Positions 4,567-14,152 of a stretch of DNA of 64,000 nt are shown piece after piece. This stretch comes from Nitrosospira briensis (GTDB lineage: Bacteria > Pseudomonadota > Gammaproteobacteria > Burkholderiales > Nitrosomonadaceae). The stretch spans positions 1-64,000 of the forward strand of contig NZ_FOVJ01000007.1 in the NCBI RefSeq assembly GCF_900115125.1, in the 5' to 3' direction. Under the pieces are notes generated by a model. That model saw nothing but the letters and a program-made list of their open reading frames with translations, was not told the origin of the DNA and did no database searches. The translations under genes were made by a program, and so were the position numbers. Within the stretch, counting starts at the first letter, position 1; every line of letters starts with the position of its first letter.

Positions 4567-4905
4567 TTGGAGCCGCATGCACTCCAGGATGCTGCAGAGA
4601 ACCCGGGCCACCTGGCAGCTACACATATTCAAGGTGTACACATGCTGCCCAACACCTTGGAGTCATCCTTTCGCGCAAGGAGCCTTCTTGCCAATCCGTT
4701 CAAATCTTTCATTTCTGAGCGCCTCGCGGGGAAGAGCATCAATGCCTTACACTTGGCGGAGAATAATCTTCGGTGCTTGTTGATCGAGCATCTGGATGAG
4801 GCGGTGTCGACTCCTCCGCTAGAACACTATGATCTCAAGGTTAACGACAAGATCATTTTGTTCGGTACCCTCGGTGACTTGCGTAAAATCAGCAAGTATC
4901 TGTAA
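4567..4905 (+). pseudogene. remnant of a TrkA/K+-channel regulatory protein (RCK_C end)
   Basis: Roughly the last 65 residues (from about position 4711: LAGKSINALHLAENN ... VNDKIILFGTLGDLRKISKYL) have the pattern of an RCK C-terminal (TrkA_C) domain, which gates potassium channels and Trk/Ktr systems. No NAD-binding RCK_N half or channel pore precedes it, and the first 45 codons look unrelated, so this appears to be a truncated 3' end. The stop overlaps the next start as TAATG, the coupling expected of an original two-gene potassium-uptake operon. Confidence 0.6.
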
Positions 4906-5488
4906 TGTGTTCAGCATTACATTCCCACTGGCTCCTGCTCGGAAAGAAGTGGTTCCTTAGTCTCCAACCCCCTCAAGCCCTGATCTTGTCCTATATCGGG
5001 CTATCCATCCTTGGAACTCTGTTGTTGAAACTGCCAGCTGCTAGCCACGAGCCTATTTCATGCGGGGGCAGTGGCTCGACGGCCGGCGGGATAAAAGTCA
5101 GCACTTTTCGCGTGGCATTGCTGGCAACATGGACATTTCTGCGAGGGCAGGAGCGGCCTCTCGTATTTGGTCGCAGCATTCAACTCGATATCATCCGCAA
5201 ACCATTGGCCATAACGGTGATTTCGTTGTTTTGCGCAGCACCAGCGTGTTCCTGCTGACTATCACAGAAAAGGGAGGTTTCCTTGACCTGGCATTTGAAG
5301 CGGTATCGGCAGCTGCCGCAGTGGGACTGTCAAGAGGGATAACGGCTGATTTATCAGTCGCCGGGTAATACATTATCGTTGTGCTAACCTTGATTGGCCG
5401 TGTTGGACCACTAACTATCGCATTCACGCTGGCAGATGCGCGCAGCGAAAATATTCAGTATCCAGCCGGTCAGGTGAATAGAGGGTAG
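4905..5488 (+). pseudogene. decayed TrkH/KtrB potassium-uptake membrane subunit
   Basis: Three blocks of a KtrB/TrkH-type K+ translocator survive. The first helix is LSLQPPQALILSYIGLSILG TLLLKLP. It is joined directly to a late selectivity-loop block, GGSGSTAGGIKVSTF, so the middle of the protein has been deleted. After about position 5240 the homology moves to another frame (FLDLAFEAVSAAAAVGLSRG) and crosses an in-frame TAA at 5366-5368. It then continues (LIGRVGPLTIAFTLA, YPAGQV) to a stop at 5486-5488. An internal deletion, a frameshift and a nonsense codon together mean no functional transporter. Confidence 0.8.
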
Positions 5489-5683: not shown

Positions 5684-6562
5684 ATGCACACATCGATTTC
5701 CCGGTTACTGCAACTCACCCCACTCATTTCTGCACTCTGCCTGACCGGATTACCGGCGACGGCGAGTGCAGCAAGCGACAGGCTGGCTGATAGTGTAATA
5801 GACAGCGTATTGGAAGGGATGGAGGCCCAAAGCCCCATCAACATTCGTTCCCATAACACCTATTTCGGGCAATTATCGCCATTGCATTTTAACTTAAGCT
5901 CCAGCACTGATCTGAGCGTCATTAATAATGGGTCACCGAGTGCGGAAAGCACGATAAGAGCCAATATTGATCCCGGTGAAGGATCGCTGACAGTTGACGG
6001 GAAAACTTATAGCCTGGCTCAATTTCATTTCCATGAACCTTCTGAGCATCTAGAAAACAACAAGGCTGCCCCAATGGAGATGCATCTGGTGTTTGCCAAT
6101 GCCGATAACCTTGTAGTAGTCGGCCGATTGGTCAACGAAGGCAGCTTCAACAGTGCACTTGGCCCAATTTTTTCAGACTTGCCAGAAACCATTACGGAGA
6201 CGAAATCAATAGACAACTTTAATCTGAATTCACTTCTGCCGGACAGGATGGAAACTTTTCGTTATACCGGTTCGCTCACAACCCCCCCCTTCACCGAGGG
6301 CGTGCAATGGATCACTTTTGCGCAACCGATGGAAATGTCCGCGACTCAACTTCAGGCTTTCGAAACACTCTTTCCGGATGGGAACGCCCGTCCAGTCCAA
6401 CCCCTCAACGGACGAATAATACTGACTGATCTACCGGGATTCGTCAGCGCCATGCCTGAGCCGGAGACCTACGCCATGCTGCTGGCCGGGTTGGGGTTGG
6501 TCAGCTTCGTCGCGAGCAGACGTCAACGCTTGAAAGCGAATGAGGCTTGGTTCCCGGTTTAA
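5684..6562 (+). CDS. alpha-carbonic anhydrase with PEP-CTERM sorting tail
   Basis: Zinc enzyme interconverting CO2 and bicarbonate outside the cytoplasm. The 292-residue protein has an N-terminal signal peptide (cleavage likely after TASA). The alpha-family marks are QSPINI (about 49-54), the zinc histidines in QFHFHEPSEH (about 114-123) and MEMHLVF (about 132-138), and the TTPPFTEGV substrate-pocket block (about 197-205). The C-terminus is PEPETYAMLLAGLGLV plus a basic stretch, a PEP-CTERM signal processed by exosortase and normally seen on secreted proteins of EPS producers. A strong ribosome site (AGGAGG) precedes ATG. The usual N-terminal W-Y-EG segment is shortened. In an autotroph it could supply CO2 or bicarbonate at the surface; zinc need may explain the neighbouring zinc genes. 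Confidence 0.9.
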   Translation: MHTSISRLLQLTPLISALCLTGLPATASAASDRLADSVIDSVLEGMEAQSPINIRSHNTYFGQLSPLHFNLSSSTDLSVINNGSPSAESTIRANIDPGEGSLTVDGKTYSLAQFHFHEPSEHLENNKAAPMEMHLVFANADNLVVVGRLVNEGSFNSALGPIFSDLPETITETKSIDNFNLNSLLPDRMETFRYTGSLTTPPFTEGVQWITFAQPMEMSATQLQAFETLFPDGNARPVQPLNGRIILTDLPGFVSAMPEPETYAMLLAGLGLVSFVASRRQRLKANEAWFPV

Positions 6563-6834
6563 CCCTTCTCTTTCTGCCTCCCTTTAGTTCCTCCCCGGGA
6601 TCGCGCTCCCGCGATCCCCTTCTCTTTTATTTCTCTTTACTTGAACAGTATGGAGGAATAGATGAGATCCTGTTCCATCCTGGGAAAGTTGCAACACGCC
6701 CTCATATTTTTACTGCCGTTTCTCTTGCGATGGCAGGCAACCTTGTCATCTCTGATCCCGCGACCCCTCAATCGCCTTGCTGATTCAGTCTCCAAACGCA
6801 TGATTGCGCTCGTGCAAATACCCAAGTATACTAG
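6563..6834. other. gap without a supported gene
   Basis: Short frames cross this gap, including one with ATG at 6662 preceded by GGAGG. It would encode about 63 residues with a hydrophobic centre but resembles no family I know and ends just before the regulator gene. I leave it as unproven. Confidence 0.4.
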
Positions 6835-6849
6835 TGCAACCTTGTTGCA
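6835..6849. promoter_or_regulatory. dyad TGCAAC-N3-GTTGCA upstream of a Fur-family gene
   Basis: A perfect 6-bp inverted repeat with a 3-base spacer lies 13 bases before the ATG of the Fur-like regulator. That position would allow autorepression, or the dyad could act as a start-proximal hairpin. It does not resemble the longer A+T-rich dyad at 11380, so the two may bind different regulators. Confidence 0.4.
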
Positions 6850-6861
6850 ATAAGGGCTTTT

Positions 6862-7284
6862 ATGTTTAACCTTCAGAAGCAGGCTGAAGAGATGATCCGC
6901 AGTATTGGAGAGCGAGTGACCTCAGGCAGGGTGGAGGTGCTTTCCATGCTGCTGGCTGAACAACGGGCTGTAACCCACCACGAAATTGAGGAGCGCTTGC
7001 GGGGTAAACACAAATTAAACCGCGTAACGCTCTACCGCGTGCTTGAATGGTTGAACGAAAATGGTTTCGCTCACAAATTGGTGAGCGATGACCGCGTATG
7101 GCGTTTTCGTGCAAATACCCATTTTTCGCAATCGGAGCAGCATGCGCATTTTGAATGCCTGCGCTGCACAAAAGTAATCTGTCTTGACGACATAAAGGCA
7201 GGGTATAACCTTCCGCTGCCTGCTGGTTATCAGTTCCGGGAAATTGGACTGACGGTCAAAGGACTATGCGCTGCCTGCGCATAG
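6862..7284 (+). CDS. Fur-family metal-responsive repressor
   Basis: A 140-residue Fur-fold protein. A winged helix (about 10-85, with LNRVTLYRVLEWL as the recognition-helix region) is followed by a metal/dimer domain with HFSQSEQHAHFECLRC (about 109-124) and a C-terminal GLCAAC pair. The two CxxC pairs form the usual structural zinc site. Zur is the likely subtype because the next genes are a DUF2946-like protein and a ZnuD-like receptor, but Fur-family specificity cannot be read reliably from sequence. The stop overlaps an out-of-frame start for the following gene, so the set is probably one transcript. A second, only distantly similar Fur-family gene lies at 10.9 kb. Confidence 0.85.
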   Translation: MFNLQKQAEEMIRSIGERVTSGRVEVLSMLLAEQRAVTHHEIEERLRGKHKLNRVTLYRVLEWLNENGFAHKLVSDDRVWRFRANTHFSQSEQHAHFECLRCTKVICLDDIKAGYNLPLPAGYQFREIGLTVKGLCAACA

Positions 7285-7328
7285 CCGCCGCCATGCTGTC
7301 CCCAGTGAATCGTGGTGAAAGTTTCTCG

Positions 7329-7676
7329 ATGATTCTGCGTAAAGCGTTTTTGCTGATTTTAGTATCGGCGTTGACGTTCCTTCCGATCCTCCAGGGAGCA
7401 CATGCGTTGACGCACGTGGACGATGCCGAGATTACCGGTATGATTTACGCCGGTGGACATGAAGAAGGCGGTGAAATCGATGCCGAGGCAGGTAGCGACG
7501 TAGATCGAGTCTGTCTCGATTGCGTGGCACTGGCAGGGCTTACCATTATTTTCATGGCGCTGGTTGTGCTTTCCTTTAATCAGAGGAAATGTCAGATCCT
7601 GCCATCTCTAAAATCGGAACCTTTCCCCCTCGATTTTTCTCTCCCCTATCTCGTCCGCGGTCCCCCTCAAGTTTAA
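7329..7676 (+). CDS. small secreted Cys-x2-Cys protein, DUF2946-like
   Basis: A 115-residue protein with a signal peptide (about 1-26, ending GAHA), a short acidic/His stretch, and VCLDC immediately before a hydrophobic segment of about 20 residues. It ends in RGPPQV. This architecture and the Pro-rich end resemble the DUF2946 family, whose members often sit beside metal-uptake TonB receptors. I chose ATG 7329 because the signal peptide begins there; an upstream ATG at 7266 would overlap the regulator and add a non-signal leader. Function is unknown; a metal-related role is inferred from neighbours only. Confidence 0.65.
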   Translation: MILRKAFLLILVSALTFLPILQGAHALTHVDDAEITGMIYAGGHEEGGEIDAEAGSDVDRVCLDCVALAGLTIIFMALVVLSFNQRKCQILPSLKSEPFPLDFSLPYLVRGPPQV

Positions 7677-7827
7677 TCCTCTGCTTGCTCCGATTGGCTG
7701 ACCTCGGCACTCGTTTGGCGCGTGCCGTCTCCAGCCCTGTCCATCCGCCCATAAAGGGTGGCGGTTATTGATTACTGCGTGGCCTGAATCTGTTGCACAA
7801 ATTCACCCGGAATACTCAAAGAGTGAT

Positions 7828-9882
7828 ATGAATATTTCAATTTGCAATTCCGCATTCCTGTTTCCAGGACGCGCGAAAGCATCGCTGCTCGCCATAGTGA
7901 TGCTTGTTTTATGCGGCGTGCCGTTTGTTCAAGCCCAGGACGCGGGCAGCCAAAGTGTATTGCCACCAGTTATGGTGACCGCCACGCCATTCCAAGACCG
8001 TAGCGAACTTGACATGGCCCAACCGGTTTCTGTGTTGCGCGGCGATGACTTGCGCCGCAAGCGGGAAGCGAACCTCGGAGATACGCTTTCCCGGGAGCTT
8101 GGCGTGTCTTCAAGCTCCTTCGGACCGGGAGCGGGCCGTCCGATCATTCGCGGCCTTGACGGTCCCCGCCTACGGGTGCTGGAAAATGGCATTGGCACGC
8201 TGGATATTTCTTCCTTGAGCCCGGATCATGCCGTGACCGCCGAATCCTTGAATGCTTCCCAAATTGAAATCCTGCGCGGCCCCGCCACGCTGCTCTACGG
8301 AAGCGGTGTATCCGGGGGAGTGGTCAACGTTGTAAATCGCCGCATTCCGAGTGAGTTGTTCAAGTCACCAAGAGGTGACTTTGAAGTACGGGGCAACACC
8401 GCGACCGAGGAGCGTGCAGGTGCTTTCAATGCGGTTACAAGCGTAGGGCCTGCATCCTTGAGCGTAGGCGCCTTCAAGCGAAAAACTGGTGACTATCACA
8501 TTCCCGGGCGCGCGAATATGGACGATCCCAATAGCAGGGCAGGGGTTGTTGAAAATAGCGCAGTGGACTCAGGGGGAATATCCGTAGGGGGGTCCTTTGT
8601 TGGCGAGAGGGGCTTTCTAGGCGGGTCGGTGTCCCGCTTGGAAAATAAGTATGGCATACCCACTCCGGAAGGCTCAAAAATCGATCTCAAGCAGACCCGC
8701 TACGATTTGTCAGGTGAGTTGGACCAGCCCATCGCTGGCCTTGAGAAACTCAAAGTGCGCATGGGCTACAACGATTACAAACATAACGAGATCGAAGGGA
8801 GCGGGGAGATTGCCACGCGATTCAAGAATCAGGGATTGGAAACCCGTGCAGAACTCCTGCATGCCCCCATAGCCGGATGGAGGGGGGTATTTGGAGTGCA
8901 ATTCCGGGACCGCAACTTTTCCGCCCTGGGGGAAGAGGCGGTGATCCCTGCTACCAAATCTCGTTCCACAGGCATATTTTTGGTCGAAGAACGCAACTGG
9001 GATCGCTGGCGCCTGGAAATCGGAGGGCGCGGCGAGTACGCGACCCAGGACCCCACCAGCAACCTCCCTTCGCGCACCTTTGGTCTCTACAACGCTTCCA
9101 CCGGTATTCTATGGAAATTCATGGATGGCCACGGCCTGGGCTTCACCGCCACTCGGGGACAGCGCGCTCCCGCCACCGAAGAGCTGTACATCAATGGCGC
9201 ACATCATGCCACGGCCACATTCCAGATGGGCGATAGTGCGTTAAGGAGCGAGACCACCAATAACCTCGATCTTGCATTGAGCAAGACTACGGGAATAGTG
9301 AAATGGAAATTCAATGTATTCCATAACTGGATTGGAAATTATATTTTTGCGCATGGTGTCGACGCCAATAATGACGGGATTGCGGATCGCTCCGACGAGA
9401 CCGGAATGCTGGATCCGGAAGGAGAATTCCTTGTGCAGAACTTTGCACAGGCTGGGGCGAGATTTTATGGGGCCGAAGGCGAAGTCATTGTCGCTCTAAA
9501 GCCTGATGAACTCGATTTGCGCTTTTTTGCCGATTACGTGCGCGGGAAACTCAACAATGGAAGCAACGTTCCACGTATCACCCCGCCCCGCTTTGGGCTG
9601 GAATTGAACCATAGGACAGGGCCTTGGACAGCGAACATTACGGCGATGCGGGTAATGCAACAAAACCGTGTTGCGGAACTTGAAACCAGTACGCCCGGTT
9701 ACACGTTATTGAATGTGGAAGCGAGCTACCGTATTAAGGAAACCAGATCGAACGGGATCAAGGTCTTCCTTCAAGGCAGGAATTTACTTAATGAAGAAAT
9801 GCGTGTTCACACGTCTTTCCTCAAGAATTTCGCCCCGCTACCGGGACGAGCGCTGGTTGTCGGCCTAAGGGGCGAGTTTTAG
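7828..9882 (+). CDS. znuD: ZnuD-like TonB-dependent outer-membrane receptor
   Basis: Outer-membrane beta-barrel that imports a metal or metal complex using TonB energy. From ATG 7828 it has 684 residues: a signal peptide (about 1-36, VQAQ), a TonB-box-like VMVTATPF, and a plug domain with RPIIRGLDGPRLRVLENGIG and EILRGPATLLYGSG. The barrel ends in GLRGEF with a terminal Phe. The block ELYINGAHHATATFQMGD and the Asp-rich loop GVDANNDGIADRSDETG are typical of the ZnuD zinc-receptor group. A TTG 20 codons upstream is possible but would place extra sequence before the signal peptide. Its position among Fur-family and COG0523 genes supports zinc uptake. Confidence 0.85.
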   Translation: MNISICNSAFLFPGRAKASLLAIVMLVLCGVPFVQAQDAGSQSVLPPVMVTATPFQDRSELDMAQPVSVLRGDDLRRKREANLGDTLSRELGVSSSSFGPGAGRPIIRGLDGPRLRVLENGIGTLDISSLSPDHAVTAESLNASQIEILRGPATLLYGSGVSGGVVNVVNRRIPSELFKSPRGDFEVRGNTATEERAGAFNAVTSVGPASLSVGAFKRKTGDYHIPGRANMDDPNSRAGVVENSAVDSGGISVGGSFVGERGFLGGSVSRLENKYGIPTPEGSKIDLKQTRYDLSGELDQPIAGLEKLKVRMGYNDYKHNEIEGSGEIATRFKNQGLETRAELLHAPIAGWRGVFGVQFRDRNFSALGEEAVIPATKSRSTGIFLVEERNWDRWRLEIGGRGEYATQDPTSNLPSRTFGLYNASTGILWKFMDGHGLGFTATRGQRAPATEELYINGAHHATATFQMGDSALRSETTNNLDLALSKTTGIVKWKFNVFHNWIGNYIFAHGVDANNDGIADRSDETGMLDPEGEFLVQNFAQAGARFYGAEGEVIVALKPDELDLRFFADYVRGKLNNGSNVPRITPPRFGLELNHRTGPWTANITAMRVMQQNRVAELETSTPGYTLLNVEASYRIKETRSNGIKVFLQGRNLLNEEMRVHTSFLKNFAPLPGRALVVGLRGEF

Positions 9883-9920
9883 TTTCCCATTACATTTTTA
9901 CGGTAGCATTCCTCCACTAT

Positions 9921-9948
9921 TGCTAATAATATATCGTTATACTTAACG
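9921..9948. promoter_or_regulatory. candidate operator, degenerate copy of the 11380 dyad
   Basis: Starting with TGCTAAT, this 28-base stretch matches the perfect dyad at 11380-11407 at about 19 of 28 positions. The left arm (TGCTAAT-ATA) and parts of the right half (TAT..TTA) are kept. It lies about 90 bases before the ATG of the PEP-CTERM gene, a sensible operator position. The same regulator, probably Zur, could bind both; this is inference. Confidence 0.4.
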
Positions 9949-10034
9949 CAGTTCATCAACCCGTATTTAAAATCAATCGCTTCAGGTGCACGTTTTCGGT
10001 CTTCTTCATTAATTAAAACCATAAGGAGGTAAAA

Positions 10035-10757
10035 ATGTTACGACATGTTCCTATCGCCATCAGGCTAGCTGTCGTTTTGATATTGGTTTCGTCACCCCAG
10101 GTATTGGCGCAAACGCACGGTGATGTCGAGCCGAGTGTGATACAGGGTAGATTGGTAGTGGATGAATCGAATTCGGTTCCGGTAGCATTTTCGACTGGCT
10201 ATAAGATTTTTGAAGGGAATTTGGGCGACCTCTACGGCGGGTCGTTAAAAACGAATGATCCTGGATTTGTTGCTGCCTCCGGGTCCTTTCTATCCGGAGA
10301 GCAGCTCTGGTATCAGGCCATTGGCAAGCTAAACTTCTGGAATGGCACCAGCTGGGTTGCAGCGCCCGACAATATATCGTTGAAACTGGAAGACGCGCTA
10401 GGAAGCGATACCTTGATAACCGCAGCCGGAGTAATCAATCCGCTAGGTGTGATTGATGCAGCCGATAGCAGTGGTGGTATTCATAGACACCTGGACTTCT
10501 CGATATCGGACTCAAATCCTGCAGGTTCCTATCTTGCCACGCTCCAGCTCAGCTCGCGTGATGCTTCAGGCAACTTGCCCTCTCCCTATCTGGACAGCGA
10601 TCCGTTTCACATCGTCTTCAATCAGGGGCTCAGCGTCCCCGCTTTCGAAGCATCCACCATCGCACTCACTGTTCCCGAGCCTGAAACCTATGCAATGTTT
10701 CTGGCAGGCCTAGCCCTGATGGGTTACACGGCAAGGCGGCGGGGGAGGAGGGATTAA
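10035..10757 (+). CDS. PEP-CTERM protein, all3515 (Zur-repressed) type
   Basis: A 240-residue secreted protein with a strong ribosome site (AAGGAGG). The signal peptide (about 1-26) ends VLAQ, the mature beta-rich domain contains GIHRHLDFSIS, and the C-terminal sorting signal is PEPETYAMFLAGLALMGYTA followed by RRRGRR. The overall plan (HGDVEPSVIQGRLVV at the mature N-terminus, SGGIHRHLDF in the middle) matches what I know as the all3515 family, named after a cyanobacterial Zur-repressed gene. Exosortase would remove the tail and release or anchor the protein. The zinc-region position and an upstream operator-like site agree with zinc control. Molecular function is unknown. Confidence 0.8.
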   Translation: MLRHVPIAIRLAVVLILVSSPQVLAQTHGDVEPSVIQGRLVVDESNSVPVAFSTGYKIFEGNLGDLYGGSLKTNDPGFVAASGSFLSGEQLWYQAIGKLNFWNGTSWVAAPDNISLKLEDALGSDTLITAAGVINPLGVIDAADSSGGIHRHLDFSISDSNPAGSYLATLQLSSRDASGNLPSPYLDSDPFHIVFNQGLSVPAFEASTIALTVPEPETYAMFLAGLALMGYTARRRGRRD

Positions 10758-10784
10758 TTTTCAGCTGAGTGCAAACGAGATTTT

Positions 10785-10816
10785 CCCCCTCCCATCCGTG
10801 TCTGGATCGGAGGGGG
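10785..10816. terminator. hairpin between convergent genes
   Basis: CCCCCTCC pairs with GGAGGGGG, with an inner ATCC/GGAT stem around a 6-base loop. There is no clean T tract on either side, so it may slow both converging transcripts rather than being a classic terminator. Confidence 0.35.
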
Positions 10817-10879
10817 GAGGGTTGAAGGATTCCAGCAAGACATTTAGAAAAGATTAGCTTGGCATTAAACGGCTTTGAA

Positions 10880-11290
10880 TTACGTATGTTTGCTCGCTCC
10901 CGGCCCGGAATTTCGGCTCTTGGGAGTGCAATCCTTACACCGGCCATAAAGAATAAGGTCATAGCTCTCGACGACGAAATCGGCGGGAACCGGAAGCTCC
11001 TTATTCTTGATCGTCTCATGGATATCGAACACTTTGCTGCATGAACTGCATTTGAAGTGGTAATGCTCTCCCAACTTTGTGACCTCATAGCGGTCCGCCT
11101 CGCCTGGGAGTTTAACCGGCAAAACCCAGCCTTCGGCCGTCAGATCTTTCAGATTCCGATAGACGGTCGCAATACTTAGCGTGGGCACAACTACCTGTGC
11201 TTCTGTAAGGATTTCTTGAGTCGAAAGGGGCCTCCTCGCGTCCGAGATTGCGCCGAGGATCGCATCGCGCTGTCGGGTATTACGTTTCAT
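10880..11290 (-). CDS. Fur-family repressor, probable Zur
   Basis: A 136-residue Fur-fold repressor. The DNA-binding half reads STQEILTEAQVVVPTLSIAT VYRNLKDL. The metal half has HYHFKCSSC (about 76-84) and RCKDC near residue 117, giving the two CxxC structural-zinc pairs. It is divergent from the COG0523-dksA-like-DUF1826 genes, with a perfect dyad in the shared 262-base region, the layout of an autoregulated repressor and its targets. Those targets are standard Zur-regulon members in other bacteria, so zinc is the most likely signal; PerR or another Fur branch is not excluded. The last 18 residues beyond the second CxxC are poorly conserved in style. Confidence 0.85.
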   Translation of the reverse strand: MKRNTRQRDAILGAISDARRPLSTQEILTEAQVVVPTLSIATVYRNLKDLTAEGWVLPVKLPGEADRYEVTKLGEHYHFKCSSCSKVFDIHETIKNKELPVPADFVVESYDLILYGRCKDCTPKSRNSGPGASKHT

Positions 11291-11379
11291 GCATCAATAC
11301 CTCGTGGAGCAACACCAGGGAGAATACTAGGGCGTTTGGATGCAGCCAATGTTAGCAATGCGACAGTCTGTTTTCACTA

Positions 11380-11407
11380 TGCTAATGATAATATGATATC
11401 ATTAGCA
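11380..11407. promoter_or_regulatory. perfect 11-bp dyad, candidate Zur operator
   Basis: TGCTAATGATA, six spacer bases, then TATCATTAGCA: the arms are exact reverse complements. The site is 90 bases upstream of the Fur-family start on the minus strand and 146 bases upstream of the COG0523 GTPase start on the plus strand. Its core TGATAAT...ATATCA resembles the A+T-rich palindromes bound by cyanobacterial and proteobacterial Zur. The match is by eye. Confidence 0.65.
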
Positions 11408-11552
11408 TTAATGCTACCCTACAACCAGGCCGCGCTGCCTCTATAGTAATGATTTTACAACTGCACACGTGGAAAGTATATGTGGCCCAAGGCGTTAGAT
11501 AAGCGAGTGTATCTTCTCATTTCATTTCCCAGTCAACCTCTAGGCGAGCCTT

Positions 11553-12803
11553 ATGACGACATCGAGTAAGCATTTGCCGGTGACAGTGCTTTCCGGATTT
11601 CTTGGCGCAGGCAAGACGACCCTGCTCAATCACGTTCTGGCGAACCGCGAAGGACTGCGGGTGGCAGTGATCGTGAACGATATGAGCGAAGTAAATATTG
11701 ATGCATCGCTTATACAAAGAGGTACGGAAAATGCCGGCTCGGCTTTATCCCGTACCGAGGAAAAATTAGTCGAAATGAGTAACGGGTGCATCTGCTGCAC
11801 TTTGCGCGAGGACCTGCTCATGGAAGTGCGCAAGCTCTGCGACGAGGGCCGTTTCGATTACCTGCTGATTGAGTCGACCGGGATCGGCGAACCCATGCCT
11901 GTTGCCGCCACGTTTGAGTTTCGAGATGAAAAAGGCGAGTCGCTTAATGATATAGCCCGCATCGACACAATGGTCACGGTGGTGGATGCGGTGAATCTGT
12001 TACGCGATTTTTCCAGTGAAGATCTATTGGCCGAGCGGGGTGAAGTGGCAGGTGATGAAGACAATCGGACGCTCGCTGGCTTGCTGACGGAGCAGGTCGA
12101 ATTCGCGGATGTAATCGTGGTAAGCAAGATAGACAAGGTCACGGCAAGTCAACTTTATGAAGTCATTGGGGTCGTCAAGGCTTTGAACCCTGTTGCGGAA
12201 GTGCTGTATGCCGAGCATGGAGACGTTCCATTGAGGAAGATTCTCGGAACAGGACGGTTCGACCTGGACCGTGCAAGCAAAATGGCAGGCTGGTTCAAAG
12301 AACTGGCAGGAGAACATACCCCTGAAACCGAGGAGTTTGGTATCACCAGCTTCATTGCACGCTTGACAGAACCACTGCATCCAGAGCGTTTCGCAGCATT
12401 TATGGAGAAACCGTTGCATGGCGTCTTGAGGGCGAAAGGATACGTGTGGCTGGCGAGTCGCCCCGATTGGGCAATATCCTATTCGCGGTGCGGCAACATC
12501 GCCACCGTGGAACCGGTAGGACGATGGTGGGCGGCAGTGCCGCGAGAACGTTGGCCAGCCGAGGGAAGTGAAGCGCGCGCGTCCATAGAGGAGAGCTTGC
12601 GGCAGCCTTACGGTGATCGCATTAACGAGGTTGTCTTCATCGGCTGCGACATGGATCGGGAACTGGTGGAGAAAACTTTCGCCCAATGCCAGCTCCAGCC
12701 TGCGGAGATTCACACGGGCATGAGCTCCTGGCGCGAGTTGCCGGACCAGTTTCCAGATTGGATACCTGTGGAGGGACAGGTTGAAGAAGTGGGAGAGCCC
12801 TAA
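11553..12803 (+). CDS. COG0523 GTPase, putative zinc metallochaperone
   Basis: G3E-family P-loop GTPase of 416 residues. It has Walker [10 protein letters not shown] (about 15-23), the metal-binding CxCC motif in [10 protein letters not shown] (about 75-84), a Walker B/switch region [11 protein letters not shown], the SKID base-specificity motif (about 194), and a CobW C-terminal domain (about 265-400). Members in Zur regulons (ZigA, YeiR, ZagA) hydrolyse GTP to deliver zinc to essential enzymes under starvation. The CobW cobalamin role is unlikely because no cobalamin genes are near. It is the first gene of a plus-strand run with a dksA-like gene and DUF1826, the classic zinc-limitation set. 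Confidence 0.9.
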
Positions 12804-12858
12804 TGATGAACTTAAAAAATCCATCACAGCCCATACATGCAATACCTGAAGGTGAGTA

Positions 12859-13218
12859 ATGTCCTGCGCACAACTGGAGTTCTTCCGCCTGCGATTGCAG
12901 GATGAGCGGCGCAGATTGCTTGAGAGCGCGCAAAGCACGCTTGAACAGATGCGAGCTATTGCTCGCGGGGCTGATTCCAACGATCGGGCAAGTACCGAGG
13001 AAAAGCTTTCCCTGGAGTTCCGGATTAGAGATCGTGAGCGCAAGTTGCTGAAGAAAATCGACGACGCCCTTATGCGCATTGATGAGGGCACGTATGGCTG
13101 GTGCGCTGAGACGGGTGAACCTATTGGCATCCCCCGTTTGCTCGCCAGGCCGACCGCTACCCTTTGCATAGAAGCCCAGGAACGTCATGAGTCGAATAAA
13201 CGTGCTTATGAGCTCTAG
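12859..13218 (+). CDS. DksA2-like, zinc-sparing RNA polymerase factor
   Basis: A TraR/DksA-family protein of 119 residues with a long coiled coil (about 5-80) and a C-terminal globular part. Classical DksA holds zinc with four Cys. Here the first pair reads WCAET and the second LCIEA, so only one Cys of each CxxC remains. That is the pattern of the zinc-independent paralogue of Pseudomonas aeruginosa, made when zinc is scarce so that ppGpp-linked transcription control continues. The coiled-coil tip reads GADSNDRASTEEK. It has a good ribosome site (AAGGTGAG) and lies 55 bases after the COG0523 gene. Confidence 0.85.
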   Translation: MSCAQLEFFRLRLQDERRRLLESAQSTLEQMRAIARGADSNDRASTEEKLSLEFRIRDRERKLLKKIDDALMRIDEGTYGWCAETGEPIGIPRLLARPTATLCIEAQERHESNKRAYEL

Positions 13219-13243
13219 AGTAAAGTCAGTGTAATAGAGAACA

Positions 13244-13912
13244 ATGCTGAAGACAGTGATAAATGCGGATGTAGAGCGAATCGAATCTCATGCATTCATT
13301 ACGAATGAGCCGGCTGAACTCATACACATATTTCATCCCTTTACCCAAATTGCTCTTTGGCGCAGGGGTGTTAACAGCATTATTGAGGCTTATCTTCAGA
13401 AAGGACTGACAAATAACCTTCTTGGACCAGGATTTCGTACCATTATTCGTTCGCCATATACACTGGCGCTCGACCTGTTTCCTGATTTTCCTGGCCGTGA
13501 GGCATTGCTTGAGGATATTCGTCTCATTGCAGAGATTTACGCCGACTTGCTGGGCTGCGACGAAATCGCGTTACGCCTTGAAATACTTGATTGCGTCATG
13601 TGTCCCCGCTTTCATGTTGATCGCACTGGTATCAGGCTGATTTGTACCTACCTCGGGTCTGGAACTGAGTGGATCAATGATGAGCTGGTGGATCGCGGCA
13701 AGCTCGGACCGGGATGTCTTGATCTTCCTGACGAAGCTTCTGGCCTGTTTGACGAGAGAACCACGATTGAGTCGCCTAATCTGTTCGATCTTTTGCTTTT
13801 TAAAGGTTCCCTATGGCAGGGGAATTCGCATAGAGGCGCAATTCATCGTTCCCCGGCTGTCGCCTCTGGCGAGCACCGTGTTCTGCTTATCATGGATGCC
13901 CTCTGGAACTAA
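13244..13912 (+). CDS. DUF1826 protein of the zinc-limitation group
   Basis: A 222-residue soluble protein with a conserved MCPRFHVDRTGIRLICTYLG block (about 118-137), GTEWIND, LFKGSLW, and HRSPAVASGEHRVLLIMD near the end. These match DUF1826. The Cys/His/Asp pattern (C-P-x-F-H-x-D and H-R-S) resembles an Fe(II)/2-oxoglutarate-oxygenase-like double-stranded beta helix, but no activity is established. The family is repeatedly found next to COG0523 GTPases and dksA2 in Zur regulons, exactly as here. It lies 25 bases after the dksA-like gene and is closed by a terminator, so it is the last gene of the operon. Confidence 0.85.
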   Translation: MLKTVINADVERIESHAFITNEPAELIHIFHPFTQIALWRRGVNSIIEAYLQKGLTNNLLGPGFRTIIRSPYTLALDLFPDFPGREALLEDIRLIAEIYADLLGCDEIALRLEILDCVMCPRFHVDRTGIRLICTYLGSGTEWINDELVDRGKLGPGCLDLPDEASGLFDERTTIESPNLFDLLLFKGSLWQGNSHRGAIHRSPAVASGEHRVLLIMDALWN

Positions 13913-13938
13913 ACCCAAGATTTAGTCTCCGCTCCTTT

Positions 13939-13963
13939 AACCCGCTTCGGCGGGTTTTTTATT
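13939..13963 (+). terminator. rho-independent terminator of the zinc operon
   Basis: AACCCGC-TTCG-GCGGGTT with six T residues, a UUCG-capped 7-bp stem. The same 25 bases recur in inverted orientation at 61752-61776. Confidence 0.85.
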
Positions 13964-13996
13964 ATTCACAGACTATTTGGAGCAGAAAAAAAATTT

Positions 13997-14152
13997 TCAG
14001 CCAGGCATTGTGCGGTACGTGACAAAGTTTTCAATGCAACGATATCCACGCGCTTTCTTACGCCGGTCATAGAGATCAGTCGTACGCGCACTTTCGTGAG
14101 CTGCCATTTGCTGCGCCACTTCCTGCTTTTCCACCACTACGCCAGTATTCAG
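13997..14152 (-). pseudogene. C-terminal remnant of a tyrosine-recombinase integrase
   Basis: On the minus strand about 50 codons read KQEVAQQMAAHESARTTDLY DRR and then run to a stop. This is the catalytic-tyrosine end of a phage-type integrase (in the family, xxA..MAAHES.RTT.LYDRR, with the Tyr attacking DNA). A TAA lies just upstream in frame and no other catalytic Arg/His motif is found, so only the tail survives. The 219 bases from here to glcF hold no supported gene. Confidence 0.65.

Follow-up and report, generated by a model that had tools for sequence, protein, structure and literature searches.

The closest described relatives of the locus reported here are gene clusters around zepA (family all3515), described in 2024, in which an exported PEP-CTERM protein is encoded together with a COG0523 protein, DksA, a TonB receptor, a FUR gene and other PEP-CTERM genes, with an upstream palindrome (PMC10957091). 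We found no exported protein other than ZepA that is reported to feed a bacterium zinc, and the excerpt of that report cited here names no receptor for ZepA. DksA paralogues that lack the C4 finger and are controlled by Zur have also been placed alongside COG0523 genes, with DUF1826 appearing in the legend of a cluster figure (PMC2770081, excerpt). The excerpts of reports on two further systems describe, in Cupriavidus metallidurans, a betaproteobacterial Zur regulon with ZupT and COG0523 genes, for which a single Zur is named and an exported partner is not (PMC11340326, PMC6103462), and, in Burkholderia cenocepacia, a rise without zinc of zur-znuACB, of a cluster of the ZigA type and of two TonB receptors (PMC10563805). 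Here, we compare with these systems a locus in a 64,000-nucleotide stretch of DNA (the window) from Nitrosospira briensis, a soil ammonia oxidiser in whose 3.2-Mb genome the locus lies on contig C16.

Our results favor a model, which we consider probable, whereby this locus comprises two adjoining zinc-starvation modules, each with its own Fur-family regulator and operator. Module 1 (6835-9882) contains a Fur-type regulator (regulator 1), a small CxxC membrane protein, a ZnuD-like receptor and the operator TGCAACNNNGTTGCA; module 2 (9918-13912) contains a second Fur-type regulator (regulator 2), a PEP-CTERM protein for which we coin the label ZepL, ZigA, a DksA-type protein and a DUF1826 protein (Table 1). 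A preliminary description of this DNA had read the same open frames, all of which are present in the sequence at the coordinates it gave, as one compact zinc-limitation island with two Fur paralogues; in fact, the two sets of genes have different operators and lie apart in relatives. Its zinc-limitation reading appears to hold at the level of gene families, operators and conserved neighbors, and profile matches bear out its two Fur-type, ZnuD-like, COG0523, DksA-type and DUF1826 assignments, though not its all3515 label. Absent from it were the gene for the small membrane protein (7266-7676), the operator at 6835-6849 and a carbonic anhydrase gene (5684-6562).

In our model, metal-bound regulator 1 would bind the palindrome at 6835, just past a -10-like box, and repress its own operon, while regulator 2, which belongs to another Fur-family lineage, would bind the operator in the promoter-like site at 11373-11402 and, more weakly, the site at 9918, thereby repressing zigA-dksA2-DUF1826, the PEP-CTERM gene and probably itself. 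Once zinc is exhausted, both regulators would be released; the receptor would import zinc, the exported His-bearing ZepL would supply the receptor with zinc captured close to the surface, ZigA would allot scarce zinc, and the zinc-free DksA would replace the zinc DksA.

Table 1 Features of the zinc locus and its borders, in window coordinates.
Feature	Position	Strand	Basis or remark
Alpha-carbonic anhydrase with PEP-CTERM tail	5684-6562		Immediately upstream of zinc modules; Carb_anhydrase 134.5 bits
Terminator-like hairpin	6597		After carbonic anhydrase gene; motif scan
Promoter-like TTGCGC-17 nt-TATACT, module 1	6804..6832	+	Read from sequence; absent from consensus-scan list
Operator 1, perfect palindrome TGCAACCTTGTTGCA	6835..6849		Conserved upstream of relatives' operon
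Regulator 1, Fur family, Zur-like	6862..7284	+	Profile and structure matches
Small membrane protein with CLDC	7266..7676	+	Operon position in relatives
ZnuD-like TonB-dependent receptor	7768..9882	+	NF038289
Operator 2b (weaker), 5' of PEP-CTERM gene	9918..9939		Matrix score 23.8
PEP-CTERM protein ZepL, undescribed family	10035..10757	+	
Regulator 2, Fur family, PerR/Fur-like sensor residues	10880..11290	-	
Promoter-like TTCACT-18-TATCAT preceded by TG	11373..11402	+	Overlaps operator 2a
Operator 2a, between regulator 2 and zigA	11383..11404		Matrix score 32.1
ZigA-type COG0523 GTPase	11553..12803	+	NF038288; CobW and CobW_C domains
DksA paralogue without two of four zinc cysteines (CAET...CIEA)	12859..13218	+	
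DUF1826 protein	13244..13912	+	PF08856
Terminator-like hairpin after module 2	13939..13956	+	

The zinc gene set is in broad lines of an ordinary, published kind. The preliminary description had found the combination unfamiliar; similar sets were described in 2024 (PMC10957091, excerpt), and it is the two-regulator layout and the ZepL family that look new. Compared with the zepA clusters as excerpted, the window lacks zepA, has in ZepL an HxH rather than an H-X2-9-H-F/Y-H motif, and has two regulators and two operators; compared with the excerpted COG0523/DksA/DUF1826 clusters, it differs in regulator lineage, operator and exported protein. Neisseria-type ZnuD (NF038289) is the best family match of the receptor, which differs from it in reaching half the curated score, in having no His-rich loop and in lying in an operon with its own regulator. 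Unusual features of the locus are the two regulator lineages with two operators, a regulator-receptor operon where relatives have another receptor, with its ancestral copy lost, and an undescribed exported family tied to ZnuD-type receptors.

Sites of the module-2 type accompany the Nitrosospira-type regulator 2 in relatives. Regulator 2 is divergent from zigA-dksA2-DUF1826 in 12 of 23 genus genomes, the window included (zigA and dksA2 are truncated in G101), and the gap between regulator 2 and zigA holds an inverted repeat of consensus TATTGATAA-N4-TTATCAATA, preceded by a TTGAC hexamer, in all 12 of the 12 relatives, with L048 lying outside the genus. This consensus was drawn after inspecting the gaps of the 12 relatives and the window, so that the window site at 11383 and the L048 site (35.0) are not blind tests, although neither is among the 18 relatives' sites from which the matrix was built. 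On the window, the matrix ranks 11383 first (32.1) and 9918 second (23.8), followed by an overlapping match at 11.6, while its maxima on ten resampled 64-kb sequences were 4.2-14.5; for operator 2a, 0.01 chance matches are expected in the window. These two best sites are the ones that the preliminary description had placed at about 11380 and 9921; 9918 had therefore been flagged already, in contrast to a site at L041:4752 (18.2), which was not seen before the matrix scan. Among 24 loci scanned, each of the 12 with a Nitrosospira-type regulator 2 carries a site in the gap that separates this gene from zigA; the other 12, L211 among them, have no site scoring at least 15 except for two Nitrosomonas sites (20.4 and 15.5) inside zigA, and 48 control loci (159,581 bases) have no such site. 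G102, G106, G107 and G112 have further sites before a receptor/PEP-CTERM pair and before a second paralogue. A single operator for all genes was considered and rejected, as regulator 1, the receptor, the carbonic anhydrase gene and znuA are not preceded by any good site for the module-2 matrix. Because a motif scan finds no terminator-like site between the receptor stop and the PEP-CTERM gene, transcripts from the module-1 promoter may extend into this gene as well.

ZigA, the DksA-type protein and the DUF1826 protein of module 2 belong to zinc-starvation families. ZigA carries CICC and matches NF038288 with 579.8 bits over the full profile, just under the cut-off of 600, and the DUF1826 protein matches PF08856 with 159 bits (cut-off 22). 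The DksA-type protein (TIGR02420, 139.5 bits, over the cut-off of 115.5) has CAET...CIEA where another copy in the genome (G000:C11:487990) has the four cysteines of CESC...CIDC; it thus combines a DksA match with the loss of zinc cysteines, marking it as a zinc-independent paralogue, and accords with the Zur-controlled, C4-finger-less DksA paralogues in the excerpt of PMC2770081. In the genus member G115 (L045, G115:C15, about 11777-14014), a DUF1826 fragment adjoins a ZnuD-like receptor of a different type (40%); this may be a decaying island.

Module 1 is a conserved unit of its own. Near full-length orthologs of regulator 1, at least 51% identical, are present in 72 of 124 other genomes searched of its family, and the order regulator 1, small CxxC protein, receptor is kept in all 19 loci that were examined in relatives (L085-L103). 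The comparison of gene order across relatives that the preliminary description had called for supports the operon and not its union with module 2: in relatives also carrying module 2, the module-1 operon sits at a separate place. The palindrome TGCAACNNNGTTGCA is found in 20 of 20 upstream regions, that of the window included (13 exact; seven with the first base changed), and by eye a TATAGT-like -10 precedes it in most relatives. The exact palindrome has a single genome occurrence, at 6835; at up to one mismatch there are eight genome sites, against four for the reversed control, and within the window one match compares with 0.24 expected, 20 of 100 shuffles holding one. Regulator 1 has a Fur domain (PF01475, 43.4 bits, above the cut-off of 23.1), its best family match is the curated Zur PRK11639, and the closest solved chain is E. 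coli Zur (4mtd, E 8.5e-10). Ten residues (H39, H71, D77, H94, H96, C99, C102, C107, C136 and C139) are invariant in 49 of 49 regulator-1 sequences, and of these H71, D77, H94 and H96 were the ones set against the sensor residues of E. coli Zur; C107 was dropped as a candidate Zur sensor residue, since the cysteine with which it aligns is a different one. In the small membrane protein family, DUF2946 matches one ortholog at E 0.012, below the cut-off.

Homologs of regulator 1 are present in 74 of 300 sampled genomes of the order. A ZnuD, COG0523 or ZnuA gene lies within about 1.5 kb in 13 of the 29 best-scoring order-level loci, with the window excluded (four of the 13 are from the window's own family; the count is 17 if DksA-type genes of unchecked type are added), and by eye a few homologs in other genera adjoin ZIP and CDF transporters; ZupT and COG0523 genes like those of C. 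metallidurans also stand beside some of them. These 29 loci, and the 23 used for regulator 2 below, are the best-scoring ones, and some (L185, L186 and L196) look near-identical. Based on gene neighbors and kinship, we conclude that regulator 1 appears to be a Zur-type regulator family-wide. The receptor points the same way, with 460.5 bits for the ZnuD model NF038289 and 117.8 bits for the next model; at the equivalent place, G102, G106, G107 and G112 carry another receptor, 35-36% identical to that of the window and with a His-containing loop.

The window holds the sole intact copy of this operon in the genome. At the syntenic place of the ancestral regulator-receptor operon lies a scar (G000:C13:198137-198444; L113:8137-8444) in which the operator, one of the eight palindrome sites above, and approximately the first 33 regulator codons, a stop among them, are joined to approximately the last 62 receptor codons. 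Because of this content, and because both flanks match relatives' flanks around the intact operon, the ancestral module-1 copy is lost, and the intact copy adjoins module 2. A fresh move of the native copy into the window was rejected: in the receptor tail, the scar shares 68% identity with the window copy, as against 79-90% for six intact relatives, although decay of the scar itself lowers identity. The window copy may have come from another strain by transfer or from an older duplication.

The pattern of module 2 has 41 matches in the 23 genus genomes, of which 19 are inside islands; three of the off-island matches were inspected. One off-island site of this type, at 4450 in L141 (G102:C202), lies shortly before a 68-residue fragment that resembles the window's receptor (68%; 4781-4984), and on its other side there are, by eye, a NicO-like gene and one for a small membrane protein.

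The exported protein of module 2 is not ZepA. ZepL carries a PEP-CTERM signal (PF07589, 34.8 bits, over 20.7) and its gene lies behind a module-2 operator in a genome with two exosortase matches, such that the link to exosortase sorting made in the preliminary description stands; its naming of the protein as all3515 does not, as ZepL has no match to NF040463 at E <= 0.1 (cut-off 75) and lacks the motif H-X2-9-H-F/Y-H. In the relative L040, the gene that separates regulator 2 from zigA scores 283.6 bits against NF040463, and the motif is present in 11 of 11 relatives' genes at this place. Of the 23 genus genomes, 10 have a true zepA there, whereas the present genome has none. Aligning ZepL with ZepA by hhalign gives a probability of 90.7 (E 1.3e-6) over only 61 C-terminal columns, which are largely sorting signal.

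In the ZepL family, H150 and H152 (HxH), D30 and D65 are present in 41 of 41 sequences (the window protein and 40 of 42 rows, after restriction to open frames 190-420 residues long), and the protein is predicted to fold as a beta-sandwich (pLDDT 88.3). A ZnuD-like receptor adjoins the ZepL-family gene in 30 of 33 loci. Because the family usually adjoins a zinc-type outer-membrane receptor, a role in catching zinc outside the cell is suggested, and ZepL is probably the zinc-capture partner of the ZnuD-like receptor. The mature part of ZepL matches no Pfam or NCBIfam model. We think it rather doubtful that ZepL is a structural, adhesive or matrix protein without a role in zinc capture. Evenly balanced in our judgment is the wider proposal that ZepL founds an exported zinc-capture family, whose members would be dedicated partners of ZnuD-type receptors in ammonia and methane oxidisers and have, depending on the host, a PEP-CTERM tail, a VPxP-type tail or none; ZepL would stand in for the missing ZepA in this genome, with two Fur lineages sharing one zinc programme. 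The closest named relatives of the window ZepL are Nitrosospira records, and the matches listed from open-licence papers include no description of the family, which lacks a name that could serve as a search term. In L213, L215 and L217 (Methylomonas-type), the receptor is followed by a long ZepL paralogue; some long members of this kind contain PKD and dockerin parts.

That regulator 2 also responds to zinc is suggested mainly by its counterpart in Nitrosomonas, where a much-alike gene set adjoins a canonical Zur: in 16 of 33 ZepL loci (Nitrosomonas-type) this Zur lies beside ZnuD and ZepL, with zigA in nine and DUF1826 in six of the 16. For the Nitrosomonas Zur, the match to E. coli Zur has an E value of 5.9e-21 and that to a different Fur-family chain one of 2.5e-23, and a tree of a random sample of 46 rows separates regulator 1, regulator 2 (support 87/85) and Nitrosomonas Zur. 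Homologs of regulator 2 are present in 22 of 300 order genomes including that of the window, eight of which also have a regulator-1 homolog, and ZepL, ZnuD (at least 37%), ZigA/COG0523, DUF1826, ZnuCB or ZIP genes lie near them in 14 of 23 loci. Besides regulators 1 and 2, the genome encodes one more Fur-family protein, a stronger match on contig C11, which brings the total to three.

Several observations weigh against two zinc-responsive modules. Regulator 2 has no cysteine in its sensor site, where a Zur is expected to hold one; the more distant regulator 2 of L211 (58%) has no module-2 site scoring at least 15; and the 22 off-island matches among the 41 in the genus exceed the 12 of the reversed control. 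Neither zinc operator was found, by palindrome search or by the module-2 matrix, at the znuABC-type operon at G000:C10:462297 (L112), which by eye has a divergent TonB receptor. For module 1, the score of regulator 1 against PRK11639 (46.4 bits) is below the cut-off of 167, no cysteine of regulator 1 aligns with C88 of E. coli Zur, which we take to be the sensor cysteine (alignment to the solved chain), and a near-match to the palindrome lies within 250 bases of nine of 29 order-level homologs, the other 20 being without. The receptor misses the ZnuD threshold (460.5 bits against a cut-off of 950) and has no His-rich loop, unlike relatives' island receptor.

Alternatively, regulator 2 could be a PerR/Fur-type sensor of iron, manganese or peroxide that has come to govern part of the zinc set, such that module 2 would respond to oxidative or iron stress and zinc would control module 1 alone. 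The best family matches of regulator 2 are PerR (75 bits, below the curated cut-off of 200) and Fur, its match among solved chains is the peroxide operon regulator 2fe3 (E 1.9e-11), and its sensor set is Fur/PerR-like, with E69, H76 and H78 in all 24 sequences and D89 in 21 of them (23 of 35 loci were kept, the rest being short or with stops); because this set lacks cysteine, iron, manganese or peroxide is a possible signal. We nevertheless consider this explanation unlikely, as the genes of module 2 are of zinc-starvation families, homologs of regulator 2 adjoin ZnuCB, ZIP, ZigA or DUF1826 genes, and Nitrosomonas has a canonical Zur in its place. Least probable is that regulator 1 and the receptor serve another metal, such as nickel, and adjoin zinc genes by chance: operator 1 resembles in shape the Nur box (TTGCAA-N5-TTGCAA), the exact palindrome precedes one operon only, the receptor lacks the His loop and regulator 1 lacks the canonical Zur sensor cysteine, but the best family and structure matches of regulator 1 are to Zur, its homologs in other genera adjoin COG0523 or ZnuA genes and, by eye, ZIP/CDF genes, and the receptor fits ZnuD far better than the next model.

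With two zinc modules as the preferred reading, ZepL and a ZnuD-type receptor, which are nearly always together, provide a concrete, testable protein-receptor pair. Nitrosospira and Nitrosomonas would have similar zinc sets under regulators of different lineages, which informs how Fur-family proteins change metal and operator. The sites described here are testable candidate zinc operators for ammonia oxidisers; among the literature matches listed, there is no zinc-regulon study of these bacteria.

The promoter and terminator scans behind the promoter-like entry at 11373..11402 and the hairpin entries in Table 1 gave no more sites than shuffles (terminators, nine in the window versus 9.5 in shuffles). 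The G+C content of the genes is 48.7-56.5%, compared with 54.3% for the window. Upstream of the carbonic anhydrase gene, short frames at 4567-5427 with a TrkA_C domain and, by eye, TrkH-like stretches resemble a decayed potassium-uptake gene.
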